Assembly: GCF_022026155.1 (NCBI RefSeq)
Contig: NZ_CP085041.1
Coordinates: forward strand, 1,892,306 to 1,956,305
Origin: Dissulfurimicrobium hydrothermale
GTDB taxonomy: Bacteria; Desulfobacterota; Dissulfuribacteria; Dissulfuribacterales; Sh68
Direction of reading: 5' to 3'
Length of the DNA stretch: 64,000 nt
In this document: positions 5,945 through 41,149 of the stretch, piece by piece
Numbering within the stretch: position 1 is the stretch's first letter
How the letters are laid out: every line of letters begins with the position of its first letter
The notes under the pieces: generated by a model
Told to the model about the DNA's origin: nothing
Seen by the model: only the letters and a program-made list of their open reading frames with translations
The model's database searches: none
Program-made: the position numbers and the translations under genes

Positions 5945-7039
5945 TTAGATCTTACCGGGAGACATCACTTCTTTTGCAGCCATTCTTTCCTCGCGAAGTC
6001 CCTGCCATATGGCCTTTAAAACTATGAAGGCGCCAAGAAACAACGCAAAGAGCATTATAGCGAAGCTTGTATTCTTCAATATCTTCTGCGTGCCTTCCGT
6101 TATGGGTTGAATCAGGCCAAGATGTGACATATAGACAGGGACCATCAGGCCCCTGCTGAATAGGACAATGACCATTATTAGCCCCATGACGACCTTTATC
6201 ATATACGCCTTTACATAGGTTGTTCCTATAGCTCCGAGCTGGACACCGAAAAGAGAGCCGGCAAGTATGATCATGGCGAGCCTTATATCGACAAGCCCGT
6301 GTATGGCATACTTGAGAGACCCACCAAACCCCATAACAAATGCCACAACCAGCTCTGTTGCAGACGCCATGATGCTGGGCGCGCCGAGCACATAGATCAT
6401 TGAAGGCACGCCAATAAACCCGCCTACCGCGATTGTTGCTGCAAGCAGGCCGGTTGCAAACGCCAGAGGTATGATAAATAATATCGATATCTTTGCATTG
6501 AGCGACCTGAAATATATCATCGTGCCCGGGATCGGTATGTTGACAGACTGAACCCACCTTGCGATCTTTGTCGTCTTTTCCTTCGCCTCAGTAGTCCCTG
6601 ATCTGTAGGTGCCATATGCATCTTTCAAGACGTATGTCCCGACTATCCCAAGAACCAGCACAAATATCACGCTGACATAAAGGTTTGAGCCATCGTTGCC
6701 AAAGGTATTCTTGATCACCTCCTGCACATGGGCGCCATACATGACGCCAGCCTCGGCAAATATACCGAAGATGAGTCCCAGCTTCAGATCCACCTGACCA
6801 TACTTGGCACGCTTTATAGCACCCACAAGCGCCTTCGGGAATTTATGACACATGTTGCTTGCAACCGCGACGAGCCCTGGGACGCCCAGACTCATCATCG
6901 CAGGCGTAAGCACAAAGGCGCCGCCAGATCCTATGAAACCGCTTACAAGACCACCGACAAACCCCACAAAAAACAGATAGGTCACGATTATCCAGTTAAG
7001 CTCTATAAAGTTGGATAGTTGAGGCGCGATATCATGCAT
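5945..7039 (-). CDS. TauE/SafE family anion exporter (likely sulfite or related sulfur anion)
   Basis: This 364-aa inner-membrane protein has the TauE/SafE pattern: two repeats of about four membrane spans with glycine-rich starts (FVGGLVSGFIGSGGAFVLTPAMMSLG near residue 25, ATIAVGGFIGVPSMIYVLG near residue 205). Members export sulfite, sulfoacetate or other anions. In sulfur-metabolising bacteria a role in sulfite or sulfate traffic is likely, but the substrate is inferred. A small membrane-protein gene ends two bases upstream, indicating co-translation, and a universal stress gene follows. The central loop (residues 130-165) is charged and probably soluble. Confidence 0.85.
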   Translation of the reverse strand: MHDIAPQLSNFIELNWIIVTYLFFVGFVGGLVSGFIGSGGAFVLTPAMMSLGVPGLVAVASNMCHKFPKALVGAIKRAKYGQVDLKLGLIFGIFAEAGVMYGAHVQEVIKNTFGNDGSNLYVSVIFVLVLGIVGTYVLKDAYGTYRSGTTEAKEKTTKIARWVQSVNIPIPGTMIYFRSLNAKISILFIIPLAFATGLLAATIAVGGFIGVPSMIYVLGAPSIMASATELVVAFVMGFGGSLKYAIHGLVDIRLAMIILAGSLFGVQLGAIGTTYVKAYMIKVVMGLIMVIVLFSRGLMVPVYMSHLGLIQPITEGTQKILKNTSFAIMLFALFLGAFIVLKAIWQGLREERMAAKEVMSPGKI

Positions 7040-7041
7040 GT

Positions 7042-7290
7042 CTATTTAACCCCCTTTGTCTTTTTGGCATCCACGCCTAGAACCGACCAAAAGCTGCCGG
7101 TGAACCCCCCGTGGACATATGAAAAAACAAACGCCATTGCAATTGGGAGAAACGCATATACACCGCCTTTGGCGCATATCTGCACAACAAAATCCCCCTT
7201 GAGCAACAAAAACGTATAGAGCGACGCAGATATCGCCCCCATGATTATCATCTTTATGTAAGGTCTCTTTTTTTCATAAACACCATCCAT
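7042..7290 (-). CDS. Small membrane protein upstream of the TauE/SafE gene
   Basis: This 82-aa protein has two hydrophobic segments, about residues 13-32 (MIIMGAISASLYTFLLL) and 42-62 (GVYAFLPIAMAFVFSYVHGG), with a Lys-rich C-terminus. A strong ribosome site (AAGGAGG) precedes the ATG. It ends two bases before the exporter gene, so it is likely a partner or accessory subunit of that exporter. I know of no assigned function. Confidence that it is a real gene is high because of spacing, ribosome site and clear membrane topology. Confidence 0.75.
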   Translation of the reverse strand: MDGVYEKKRPYIKMIIMGAISASLYTFLLLKGDFVVQICAKGGVYAFLPIAMAFVFSYVHGGFTGSFWSVLGVDAKKTKGVK

Positions 7291-7649: not shown

Positions 7650-9473
7650 CTAAATATGTCTGACAGCAAGCCCCAGGACCTTGCCATCCTGCTCGAACAT
7701 AAGCCTCTTTGTAACAAGGTCCGTTAAAAAGGCCGCAATCTCTCCTTGAGATTTATCTGGAAACCGCTCAAAAATATCCTGAACCGGCCTTGGCTCAAGG
7801 CAAGTGAGATAAATCGCCCTTGATGACCCTTTTAGCCTGTGTGTGAGCACCTCGCCAGAGGGTCTGATCTGTCTTATAAGGAGATAATCCCCGCCGTCAC
7901 GGTATGTGAGGGGTCTTTGCAGCCCAAGCACCGCCCTCTCCCTTCGCCATGCCGCGATTTTTTGTTCGACCCACTTCCAGCGCCTTTGTTGAACAAGCCT
8001 GTCACCCTTATATCCAAGCACCAGCGGCATGATGCCGGCCAATATCTCCTCTGGAAACATATAGCGCCAGAATGTATGGATCGTCACGGATCTTATCCCG
8101 AATATAGACGGGTCAGAGGCCATGGGGCTCCCAAGGCCAAGCCAAAACGAGACGGCCTTAAGGGGTCTAAAGGGCCATACAAAATCAAGCACACGAAGGG
8201 TCTCATTAACCTCTTCATCCGTGCTGCCAGGAAAGTGAAGGATCAGATTTGCTGAGAGGTTCAGCCCTGACTCCTCGGCATGTCGCATCGTCTTGACATT
8301 GTCCATGACACTTACGCCTTTGCGCATCCGCCCAAGCAGGGATTGACTCAGGGCCTCTATGCCTACCTGGATGTCTTTCAGACCGCCCCTGGCCATGGCA
8401 TATAACTCATCACGGCTGTAACCCACCCTGAGTTCGGCAAAAAAGCTGTAATCCCTGCCATGTCCTTCAAGGATATCAAATAGCTTAGAGGCATCCCGCC
8501 TAGGGAGGGAATTGTCCATAAAGGCGAAATCAAGCAGGCCGTAACGCCTGGCAAGCTGATCTATCTCTGTCGCCATCCTCTCTGCCGATTTTGCCCGATA
8601 TGCCGTCCACTGGATGTTCAAATTGCAAAAATTGCAACGCCCCCACCAGCACCCGCGGGAAAACTCCACAGGCAGCACAGGGAAAAAGCGTTTGCTAGGC
8701 CCTAACTTTAAAATATCACAGAAATAGTCGTCAAAATCAGGAACGGGAAGCCCATCCAGGCCATCGATCTGAGACTTCGGCCGATCCCCGACCGATCCTT
8801 TTGACTTATCATCCTTAATACCTCGTTCTCCATTGTCAGACAGGATCACCTTTCCATAAACGGCCTCCGGCAATGACGTCTCTTTGCCGCTCAGAAAATC
8901 TGCAAGACCTACAAGTGGACGCTCTCCCTCACCGTCAACAATATAATCAATCCAAGAAAACGACCTCAAAATAGAGGCACCTGCAGCGCCGGAGACGGCG
9001 GCACCGCCCAACACGATGGGAAGGGATGGGGCAAGGGCCTTTACAGCCCTTGCAATCACAAGCGCAGCCGTAAGTTGATTTACGGAGACAGTCAAACCAA
9101 CGAGGTCAAGGGCGTCCAGAGCAAGAAAAGAAACGAACTCCGTCAGCACTTTATCCACAGCCTCGCGCACACAGACGGGCTGCAGGAGTCCCCTACCCTT
9201 TCCTTTTCTAACCGTCCTTAAAAATAGTCTGTCACATTCCTGTTCCATCTCAGGAAACAAGATGCCTGCAGAGATAGCCTCAGACGCCCATATTGATTCG
9301 CTGATGGATTGATAGACCTCAAAACCGATTTGGGAGGCCAATTCGAGATATGGGTGGTGACAGGATATGTCCACCCATGGGCGCTCCCTTCTCAAATAGG
9401 CCTTAAGAGAAGCAATCTGGATAGATGGCCTGTTGAAAAGAGGCCATGGCGGTGCGATCAAGGCGATTTTCAT
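7650..9473 (-). CDS. B12-binding-domain radical SAM protein, RiPP C-methyltransferase-like
   Basis: The 607-aa product starts with a cobalamin-binding-like Rossmann domain (residues 1-200; MKIALIAPPWPLFNRPSIQ, then VGLTVSVNQL and LPIVLGGAAVSG) followed by a radical SAM barrel. The cluster motif is SRGCWWGRCNFCNLN, i.e. C-x4-C-x2-C, then YRAKSAERM, VGIEALSQSLLGRMRKGVS and NLILHFPGSTDEEV. This order and wording match the family of RiPP-maturation radical SAM C-methyltransferases, although that family usually has a longer spacer in the Cys motif. A C-terminal region of about 130 residues resembles a winged-helix-like domain. A DMT transporter gene lies 13 bases upstream. Substrate unknown. Confidence 0.8.
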   Translation of the reverse strand: MKIALIAPPWPLFNRPSIQIASLKAYLRRERPWVDISCHHPYLELASQIGFEVYQSISESIWASEAISAGILFPEMEQECDRLFLRTVRKGKGRGLLQPVCVREAVDKVLTEFVSFLALDALDLVGLTVSVNQLTAALVIARAVKALAPSLPIVLGGAAVSGAAGASILRSFSWIDYIVDGEGERPLVGLADFLSGKETSLPEAVYGKVILSDNGERGIKDDKSKGSVGDRPKSQIDGLDGLPVPDFDDYFCDILKLGPSKRFFPVLPVEFSRGCWWGRCNFCNLNIQWTAYRAKSAERMATEIDQLARRYGLLDFAFMDNSLPRRDASKLFDILEGHGRDYSFFAELRVGYSRDELYAMARGGLKDIQVGIEALSQSLLGRMRKGVSVMDNVKTMRHAEESGLNLSANLILHFPGSTDEEVNETLRVLDFVWPFRPLKAVSFWLGLGSPMASDPSIFGIRSVTIHTFWRYMFPEEILAGIMPLVLGYKGDRLVQQRRWKWVEQKIAAWRRERAVLGLQRPLTYRDGGDYLLIRQIRPSGEVLTHRLKGSSRAIYLTCLEPRPVQDIFERFPDKSQGEIAAFLTDLVTKRLMFEQDGKVLGLAVRHI

Positions 9474-9486
9474 AGAAACTCAGGCT

Positions 9487-10389
9487 TTAATCAGTGATCA
9501 TGATCAACGCCACCCCAAGGGTCATAAGTCCGGCACCGATCAACCGTTTAAGGGTCTCATCCTCGGAAAAGACAAATCTTCCATATAAGACACTAAAGAT
9601 GGCACTGGTCCTCTTGACCGCAATCATATATGCAGCCGCCACAAGATGTATGGCCCACATATGGCTAACAACCATTACGGACTGCGAAAACCCTGCAGCT
9701 ATCAAGGCCCGCCACCCGCCCATAATGGCTGACGCCGCGCGGCATCTTGGTCGACCTCTCAGGCACCACCTGAAGACCCCTGGAATGACACAGAAGATCA
9801 TAATGGTCGCGAGACCAAGTATTACAAAATAAAAACAGGCAAAGAAAAAAGGCCCCGACTCAGAAACCGCCTTTTTCCCAAGGACGCTGGTTACCGAATA
9901 GACGGCGGATACAAAAAACATCAGCCTTGAACCGCCATCCTTGATGGCTATTCTAAGTGTCTGCAAGACCCCTGGGGTGTTTGATCTGAAATGGAGCAAA
10001 TAGGCCCCTGCGACCGTAAACAAGATACCGACCATACCCCTAAGGTTGATCCTCTCTCCAAGGATCAACCAACCGGTCAGTACCGTGAATGCGGGCGTAA
10101 AGGCGAGAAATGGGACAGATAGGGAAAGTGGGGAGGTCTTGATGGCCTTCATGTAAAAAAAAAGCGCAAAGATCTCCAGAGGCAGGAGTATGGACAACGT
10201 CTCCCAAAAGGCCAGGGTAAGTTTCGGCCACGGCATGAACATCAGCGGCAGGAGCAAAAATGGGACAGGGGCTGCAGCCCTTATCGCCATCATATCCTGT
10301 GGGGAAAGATGGGCGAAACGGGCCTTGATGACCACATCGGTTGTAGCGGTTGAAAAGGCCGTGAGGAGGGCCAGAGGCAACCAATTCAC
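9487..10389 (-). CDS. EamA/DMT-family transporter
   Basis: This 300-aa inner-membrane protein has about ten hydrophobic segments arranged as two EamA repeats (residues 1-135 and 155-300). The repeat ends TPAFTVLTGWLILGERINLRGMVG and RTSAIFSVLYGRFVFSEDETLKRLIG show the usual glutamate-containing signature of the drug/metabolite transporter superfamily. It is translated just before the radical SAM gene (13-base gap), so it may export the product of that enzyme, but this is inference. A Cys/Arg-rich cytoplasmic loop (CLRGRPRCRAAS) is unusual for the family. Confidence 0.85.
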   Translation of the reverse strand: MNWLPLALLTAFSTATTDVVIKARFAHLSPQDMMAIRAAAPVPFLLLPLMFMPWPKLTLAFWETLSILLPLEIFALFFYMKAIKTSPLSLSVPFLAFTPAFTVLTGWLILGERINLRGMVGILFTVAGAYLLHFRSNTPGVLQTLRIAIKDGGSRLMFFVSAVYSVTSVLGKKAVSESGPFFFACFYFVILGLATIMIFCVIPGVFRWCLRGRPRCRAASAIMGGWRALIAAGFSQSVMVVSHMWAIHLVAAAYMIAVKRTSAIFSVLYGRFVFSEDETLKRLIGAGLMTLGVALIMITD

Positions 10390-10449: not shown

Positions 10450-11310
10450 CTAGAAGCCACGACCCATGGCCATCTCGTTCAGTCTCCTTATACGCTCCTC
10501 GATCGGCGGATGTGTGCTGAAGAGATTGGCCAACGCTCCACTGGTCAAGGGGTTTACGATATACATCTGGGCTGTGGCTGGGTTTACATCCATCGGGAGA
10601 CGATGATTCCAGTCCTCAAGCTTTTTTAGCGCGCCAGCAAGTGCAAGGGGACGACCGCATATCTTCGCCCCTGTAGCGTCGGCAAGGAACTCCCTGCTCC
10701 TCGAAATGGCCATCTGTATAAGCATAGCCGCTATCGGGGCGACTATCATCATGACAAGGACCCCAATCACCCCTCCGGAATCATCATCGTCAGAGCGGCG
10801 GAAACCACCAAACAACATGGCCCATTGCGCCATGTTGGCAAGATAGCTTATGGCCCCTGCAATCATGGCCGCTATAGAACTTATGAGTATATCTCTGTTC
10901 TTAACGTGTCCAAGTTCATGGGAGATGACCCCTTCAAGCTCGTCTTTTGAGAGGAGCCTCAATATCCCCTCGGTCACAGCCACCGCTGCACGCTCCGGAT
11001 TTCTGCCGGTCGCAAAGGCATTGGGGGTCTCTGTATGGATTATATAGACCCTTGGTTTGGGCAAGCCAGCCTTCCTGGCGAGATCCCTAACGACTGCATG
11101 CAGCTCCGGTTCATCCGTCTCAGATACCTCGACAGCCCCAGCCATTGCAAGGGCCAACTTGTCGCTGAACCAATATGCGCCGAAATTCATAACACCCGCC
11201 ATAACCAAGGCAACGGTCATACCCTGATTGCCGCCGATGGCCTTGCCCACCGCCAGGAACAAGGCGGTAAGGGCTGCAAGAAGAACAGTTGTCTTTAATA
11301 GATTGGACAT
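10450..11310 (-). CDS. htpX: Membrane zinc metalloprotease HtpX
   Basis: HtpX (286 aa) degrades misfolded membrane proteins together with FtsH. The zinc site HELGH (within [13 protein letters not shown]) is near residue 129, with the distal Glu in [11 protein letters not shown]. Membrane segments lie at the N-terminus and either side of the protease core. The start is set at the ATG at 11310 (MSNLLKTTV), 12 bases after GGAGG. A TTG four codons earlier directly abuts the ribosome site and is less likely. It is codirectional with the DMT transporter gene 60 bases downstream. Confidence 0.93.
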
Positions 11311-11560
11311 AATTGTAAACAACCTCCAGCCGATGCTGTACTATATTTTAAAAATTCACTGCACCATCTGCCCGGTCGCGTCTGACACCCAGGCAAAGAG
11401 ACAAACAATATCCGCTGCCAGGTAAAGAATGCCCGCCTACCAGACTAGTAAAATAGGAATTTTTTATAAAATAATCATTTCTTTGGTCATATGGAAGAGG
11501 TGCACAAACCAGACGGGCATTAAAACGGCCAAAGGGCACTGACGCTGGACCACGCCTGAT

Positions 11561-12580
11561 TTAAACATCGCCTTTCATTATGGCCGTAGCCGTTTCTACG
11601 TCCCTCCTACTGCCTATAAAGAGCGGGGTTCTCTGATGCAGATGGGCCGCCCTGATATCTAATATACGCTCCCTTCCATCGGTTGCCGCCCCCCCAGCCT
11701 GTTCGGCCACAAACGCCAACGGCGCAGCCTCGCAGAGCAATCTCAGTTTACCGCTGGGTTTTGCCGGGTCTTTATTGTCCGCAGGGTACATAAAGATACC
11801 GCCATCCAAGAGGTTTCTGTGAAAATCCGCCACCAAGGCCCCGATATACCTTGCGGTATACGGCTTGCGGCGGGCGTTCTCTGTTGACTTGAAATAATCG
11901 ACGACTTTTTTTGTGCGCCCATCCCAATAATTGGTATTTGATTCGTTTACTGAATATATCCGGCCCTGTTCCGGTATGCGTATGTCTGGGTGAGAGAGGA
12001 GGAACTCCCCAACCGTAGGATCAAGGGTAAAGCCATGAACGCCCTTGCCGGTCGTATATACCAGCATGGTGCTTGGGCCGTAGAGAAAATAACCGGCCGC
12101 CACCTGTTCCGATCCCTTTCTCAAAAATTCCTCCATGGTAACATAAGGCCTCTCGCCGACCACCCTGTAGATAGAAAAGATAGTACCTATATTTACATTT
12201 ACATCTATATTCGACGAACCGTCCAACGGATCGAATATTAGGATGTAGTTCCCCCTGGGCATGTCATCAGGCACCTCGATGACATCCGCATTTTCCTCGG
12301 ACGCCATGGCGCACAAAACCCCTGAACGCTGCATCCTGTAGATCAAGACCCTGTTCGAGAACTCGTCCAACTTCCTGACCTGCTCTCCTTGGACGTTTAT
12401 ATCGCCCGTAAGACCAAGGATGTCCACAAGTCCAGCCTTTTTGACCTCTCTGGCTATGATCTTGGCAGAGAATATGAGTTCACTCAGAAGCCTTGTAAAC
12501 TGTCCGGTCGCCGCAGGCGATTCCTTCTGGTGTATCAAAAGGTGCTCCGTTACTGTTATCCCCAGTCCTTCCATGCGCAT
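11561..12580 (-). CDS. fbp: Fructose-1,6-bisphosphatase class I
   Basis: This 339-aa enzyme hydrolyses fructose 1,6-bisphosphate to fructose 6-phosphate in gluconeogenesis and, in autotrophs, in carbon fixation. The class I metal/phosphate signature is present ([18 protein letters not shown], near residue 115), as are SEENAD and the substrate-binding region ([44 protein letters not shown] given in two parts of the sequence). A strong ribosome site (GAGGAGG) precedes the ATG. A CDS-free stretch of about 250 bases separates it from htpX. Confidence 0.95.
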
Positions 12581-40924: not shown

Positions 40925-41012
40925 GGAGGGATGGCCGAGTGGTTTAAGGCGGCGGTCTTGAAAACCGTTGTGCCGAAAGGCACCGTGGGTTCGAATCCTA
41001 CTCCCTCCGCCA
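40925..41012 (+). tRNA. tRNA-Ser (anticodon TGA)
   Basis: A full serine tRNA with acceptor stem GGAGGGA / TCCCTCC, long variable arm, T-loop GGTTCGAATCC, and anticodon loop CTTGAAA giving anticodon TGA. The CCA end is encoded (41010-41012) after discriminator G. It reads UCA and probably UCG codons. Confidence 0.95.
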
Positions 41013-41057
41013 TACCTTAAAAATTTCAAGGTCATTAGACCTCGAAAAGAAAAGCCT

Positions 41058-41149
<92 letters not shown>

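Follow-up and report, generated by a model that had tools for sequence, protein, structure and literature searches.

The closest described relatives of the gene considered here are RiPP C-methyltransferases, B12-type radical SAM enzymes recognised by the NCBIfam model TIGR03975 (rSAM_ocin_1). They are found in RiPP clusters, where several copies can be present. An example is a plasmid of Streptomyces globosus, on which the enzyme gene adjoins dpgA-C and a gene annotated as "pheganomycin family RiPP precursor". In Sinorhizobium meliloti, the enzyme gene adjoins four Nif11-like precursors and an epimerase gene; in both cases the names are those of the annotators. The corresponding region of a third plasmid record carries no annotation. 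These RiPP-associated enzymes are called clade A below. Variations of the CxxxCxxC motif are described in a review (PMC5682303).

The window is the whole stretch of DNA analysed, 64,000 bases corresponding to bases 1892306-1956305 of the 2,025,450-base, single-contig genome of Dissulfurimicrobium hydrothermale Sh68. It carries a gene for a B12-type radical SAM enzyme (rSAM) behind a gene for a DMT/EamA transporter (Table 1). On the minus strand the genes follow each other in the order fbp, htpX-like, DMT, rSAM, and 13 bp (9474-9486) lie between DMT and rSAM. The original prediction had described both reading frames, this spacing and a C-x4-C-x2-C motif, all of which were borne out. Elsewhere in the window, 5945-7290 (minus strand) encodes a TauE/SafE-type exporter with an 82-residue ORF without Pfam match directly upstream, and 40925-41146 (plus strand) holds two tRNA genes that are 85 and 89 bases long and 48 bp apart.

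Table 1. Features of the rSAM locus, in window positions.
Feature	Position	Strand	Remarks
B12-type radical SAM enzyme (rSAM), clade B of TIGR03975 (very probable placement)	7650-9473	-	607 aa, ATG start
C-terminal winged-helix-like domain, about 91 aa, common with clade A	7656-7928	-	residues 516-606
Radical SAM core	8190-8669	-	residues 269-428
Cluster motif and clade signature	8607-8651	-	residues 275-289; C-x4-C-x2-C, then NLNxQW
B12-binding-like (Rossmann) domain	8904-9140	-	residues 112-190; under Pfam cut-off
DMT/EamA transporter, optional neighbour	9487-10389	-	300 aa, GTG start
HtpX-like M48 protease	10450-11322	-	conserved upstream gene of block
Fructose-1,6-bisphosphatase (fbp)	11561-12580	-	first gene of conserved block

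The rSAM protein matches TIGR03975 over the entire length of the model, with 365 bits (E 6.9e-109) against a cut-off of 281.85, and on this point the predicted likeness to B12 radical SAM enzymes of the RiPP C-methyltransferase type held. It is the only gene of its genome above the cut-off; the next-best match has 91 bits. The second-best NCBIfam match of the protein is ApyD (NF050148), a RiPP radical SAM protein, with 87 bits over residues 121-429 only, far under the cut-off of 750. Like the class B radical SAM methylases, rSAM has a three-cysteine motif (C275-x4-C280-x2-C283) together with a radical SAM core. Pfam Radical_SAM scores 53.6 bits (cut-off 29.5), and the B12-binding model (PF02310) gives 26.4 bits, below its cut-off of 32.1. 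The DMT protein matches Pfam EamA in two stretches with 87.9 bits, as is typical of a DMT/EamA transporter.

The family covered by TIGR03975 divides into two sister clades. In a careful tree of 42 rows, clade A has support of 100/98 and the other, clade B, of 100/100. These rows comprise 19 of clade B, 20 of clade A and three other radical SAM proteins that serve as outgroup on long branches, and the split between A and B is independent of the latter. A quick tree of 70 rows supports clade A with 96 and clade B with 99; excluded from it were 15 clade-B loci that were short or nearly duplicated others, and also two fragments from the largest set. The rSAM of the window very probably belongs to clade B. 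A placement outside the RiPP enzymes had been named as the result that would speak against the original prediction. Both trees tell against the RiPP reading, in that the gene belongs to the sister of the RiPP-associated clade and not to that clade itself.

The two clades can also be told apart by a short signature at the third cluster cysteine. The sequence FCNLNxQW is present in all 75 clade-B loci (74 genomes), and CNLNxQW in every one of the 57 clade-B rows in the first alignment; clade A mostly has FCGLNG at this place. An exact degenerate DNA pattern for the signature matched 56 of 395 phylum genomes, and the reversed control none of the 395. The pattern occurs once per genome, with the exception of G268, where the gene is split over two contigs. 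TIGR03975 scores fall likewise into two groups: across 247 phylum genomes, 36 of them above the cut-off, they range from 571 to 662 and from 284 to 403 bits, with one further fragment at 184. By score and motif, 27 of these 36 are clade B with one gene each and nine are clade A with up to four copies, while none has both; the clade-B counts refer to Desulfobacterota genomes. A scan of genome contigs with the single protein added one distant relative, in an Elusimicrobia MAG (L036), which falls in clade A. Viral contigs gave no match. In two single genomes (G060 and G132; L146 and L147), four clade-A paralogues lie close together, and these clusters perhaps make a multiply methylated RiPP. A search of titles and the beginnings of abstracts found no description of clade B, and the term "radical SAM" is absent from the main text of the D. 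hydrothermale genome paper (PMC8780430).

The cluster motif had been regarded as shortened. Among the 75 clade-B loci, the first two cysteines are separated by 4 residues in 42, by 13 in 19, by 9 in four and by 14 in three; the remaining seven have 8, 12, 15 or 17. The spacing of 4 is also found in 4 of 16 Desulfobacterota clade-A rows. A short motif as the mark of a special enzyme was thus rejected, since it is the commonest state of clade B and occurs in clade A as well.

Within the window's order, rSAM is widespread. A protein search in 60 genomes, including its own, found a match in 40, and in 39 of the 46 genomes of the order, again including its own. It is missing from seven (G001, G007, G011, G014, G017, G032 and G041), several of which are incomplete. 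Because it is missing from these and from most of the phylum, the gene is not essential there. Nine close rSAM pairs have dN/dS values of 0.13-0.29, and the protein is therefore in use.

The gene is vertically inherited within the order, and its surroundings are partly conserved. A block fbp-(phosphoglycerate-mutase-like)-htpX-(DMT)-rSAM-TPR protein recurs in seven families (f1, f2, f3, f4, f5, f9 and f10), in which members are sometimes missing. The genome of the window is without the TPR gene of the block, and in the closest relative by sequence (G006, 58%) no other block gene was found beside rSAM. The TPR protein, of approximately 280 residues ("c3"), stands behind rSAM in most native loci of the order; in f28 the two overlap over 4 bp. 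As a dedicated partner it was rejected, being absent from the window's own genome. Among 80 phylum genomes it was present in 7 of the 40 that have the signature and in 6 of the 40 that lack it, the latter 40 being hand-picked in handle order and non-random. Its PDB profile matches are almost all to the TPR part. A family of approximately 280 residues with a TPR tail (A3, as at L044:12749-13606) has a nearly invariant FHEAMKLKE in its N-terminal part, which has no Pfam match at cut-off; A3 occurs with and without rSAM.

One proposal in the original prediction was that enzyme and exporter form a small biosynthetic unit. The spacing of 13 bp suggests this, as does the adjacency of the two genes in nine genomes from six families of the order (G000, G004, G005, G013, G016, G021, G022, G030 and G031). 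These nine, however, are a minority of the 39 rSAM-bearing genomes of the order: the DMT gene is elsewhere in the genome in 16, and no orthologue was detected at E 1e-15 in the other 14. Two of the seven genomes without rSAM (G007 and G011) keep DMT, and outside the order an EamA-like gene was found nearby only in f28, where it is of half length. The conserved neighbourhood that had been expected is therefore seen within the order as a household block, but the exporter is an optional part of it. A common unit of rSAM and DMT is very unlikely; the DMT gene is an optional household-block member rather than the dedicated exporter of rSAM.

Further evidence against such a unit is provided by the genus g3 of family f2 (L073-L078 with L059-L064). 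In the six genomes read, the native rSAM is gone from between DMT and the TPR gene, and some 11-27 bp lie between the matches to these two. The rSAM of g3 is located elsewhere, flanked by TrmO-like and DUF3795 genes, and carries a long cysteine spacing. It groups with f59, from another part of the phylum. Constraining the g3 copies to the rest of the order was rejected (delta lnL 269, AU p 1.7e-10) in a tree of 56 rows. Of the order loci, this tree retained 18 plus four of g3 and omitted the others; L140, L141, L070, L155, L135 and L138 were omitted as well. The genus has thus lost its native rSAM from an intact block and acquired a foreign clade-B copy horizontally. As gene and place changed while the function was kept, this argues against a close coupling of rSAM to either DMT or the TPR protein.

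A precursor was sought at the clade-B loci. The comparison between loci covered all ORFs of 20-130 aa that lie within 4 kb of rSAM but not inside a larger gene; 620 came from 36 loci of the order and 641 from 39 loci outside it. Among the best 25 of each set, no small ORF was common to different families, and matches were confined to one genus or to near relatives. The largest group among these was made up of the g3 DUF3795 gene with its overlapping ORFs, and one such small ORF also matched L047. As a control, the same script was applied to 12 clade-A loci (262 ORFs), where Nif11-type precursors common to four loci came out on top. The earlier finding that no precursor lies nearby therefore extends, for the best 25 of each set, to all 75 loci. 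The Nif11 leader model had no match in the window's own genome; four of 60 genomes matched, three of them over the cut-off (G040, G042 and G051). In G040 and G042, which belong to the window's order, the over-cut-off matches are to 77-residue frames on contigs other than that of rSAM. The NHLP leader model matched nothing, neither in the own genome nor in any control, so that its result carries little weight.

The C-terminal domain of approximately 91 residues is common to both clades (hhalign probability 99.5, E 3e-22, clade A against clade B). Single clade-B members show weak matches to winged-helix families, the best being HxlR at 2e-4 (2 of 27) and Lant_dehydr_N (1 of 27), and PqqD matched none of the 27 members. 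A search of PDB profiles gave chance-level matches only, and AF2 modelled the C-terminal 102 residues alone with a pLDDT of 43.9. The RRE, for comparison, is described as a winged helix in which three strands are followed by three helices (PMC12710340). At a core identity of 0.42-0.50, the non-independent pairs of the domain are more similar in clade B (0.373, 419 pairs) than in clade A (0.292, 91 pairs). The same holds for the N-terminal 120 residues (0.352 against 0.300), whereas the B12-binding part is less similar in B (0.427 against 0.535). We read the clade-B domain, from these non-independent pairs, as a putative docking domain for an unchanging partner.

Outside the order, the 39 loci have mixed neighbours. 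In f71, LolA lies upstream and CobU/CobD-like genes downstream of rSAM; f83 likewise has CobU/CobD, and f105 a LolA cluster. A POR-domain gene is found near rSAM in f58, in one genome of which rSAM faces CobD. Other neighbours are a half-length EamA gene and a TPR gene (f28), a cation-efflux gene (f59), a carbonic anhydrase (f60), an ORF directly upstream (f77), an HD domain and an M24 peptidase. One f72 genome has a Peripla_BP_2 protein that weakly resembles BtuF and overlaps rSAM by 4 bp. Beyond the scanned representatives, neighbour names come from blastp clustering. Genes were called with simple ORF scripts, and minor details may therefore be inaccurate.

Taken together, these observations are best explained if rSAM is a conserved B12-radical C-methylase whose cellular substrate, perhaps a protein, is not linked to it, a reading to which we give a probability of about one half. 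Chemistry and class of substrate are both inferred, the former from the family. The [4Fe-4S] cluster and SAM would generate a 5'-deoxyadenosyl radical; the methyl group placed on an unactivated carbon would come from methylcobalamin held by the N-terminal domain. The substrate would be a conserved component of the cell, either with its gene elsewhere or not gene-encoded. This fits the original suggestion of a distant or unusual substrate, or one that is not a peptide. It is likely that rSAM is not a RiPP enzyme of the ordinary, clustered kind.

A true RiPP enzyme with a far-off precursor would also pass the TIGR03975 cut-off, and the C-terminal domain common with RiPP-type relatives and the RiPP association of the sister clade speak for this explanation. 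It is nevertheless improbable: the search that recovers precursors in clade A finds no conserved small ORF among the best 25 of each set here, the own genome has no Nif11 leader match (two leader families having been searched genome-wide), and clade A does not share the single copies, the inheritance throughout the order or the household operons. Methylation of a small molecule, such as a lipid, a cofactor or a cobamide-related metabolite, is also unlikely, if marginally less so. Small molecules are the substrates of other families of B12 radical SAM enzymes, and the CobU and CobD-like genes of f71 and f83, the CobD of f58 and the overlapping protein of f72 point in this direction. Against it stand the otherwise mixed neighbours outside the order (LolA, POR-domain, carbonic anhydrase, cation efflux, HD, M24), because of which the cobamide theme is weak, and the lack of any cobalamin riboswitch at the gathering threshold in the six sources scanned (the window, L132, L137, L126, L140 and L141). 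Cobamide salvage as the function was rejected, as the suggestive neighbours occur in few lineages only. Since clade B keeps the C-terminal winged-helix-like domain that presumably binds leaders in clade A, we think a protein or peptide somewhat likelier as the substrate than a small molecule.

A more specific form of the preferred reading, offered tentatively, is that many Desulfobacterota possess, in clade B, a household C-methylase of proteins, which reuses a peptide-docking domain on one conserved protein. Such a methylase may have arisen out of the RiPP C-methyltransferases or in parallel with them, and the post-translational modification that it makes would be one still to be assigned in these sulfur bacteria. 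Should the substrate be a conserved protein or metabolite, an unassigned methylation would exist in this large phylum, whose members are sulfur bacteria, and would be present in a cultured one, Dissulfurimicrobium hydrothermale Sh68. There is also a practical consequence. TIGR03975 covers both clades, so that clade-B genes pass a cut-off by which they are named for RiPP maturation, and genome mining with this model may count RiPP clusters that do not exist.

Compared with known systems, rSAM is closest to the clade-A enzymes, with which it shares the domain order, the 606-position model from end to end and the C-terminal domain; the listed plasmid relatives of clade A are 26-31% identical to it. 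The differences lie in signature and setting. Clade A mostly has FCGLNG and is found in RiPP clusters with precursors, whereas the rSAM of the window has FCNLNxQW and is a single-copy gene in a household operon, where no precursor was found. A working analogy for a B12 radical SAM enzyme that acts on an ordinary protein, and an analogy only, is the methyl-coenzyme M reductase glutamine C-methyltransferase (TIGR04014), a different family that rSAM matches weakly, with 35.7 bits where the cut-off is 360.
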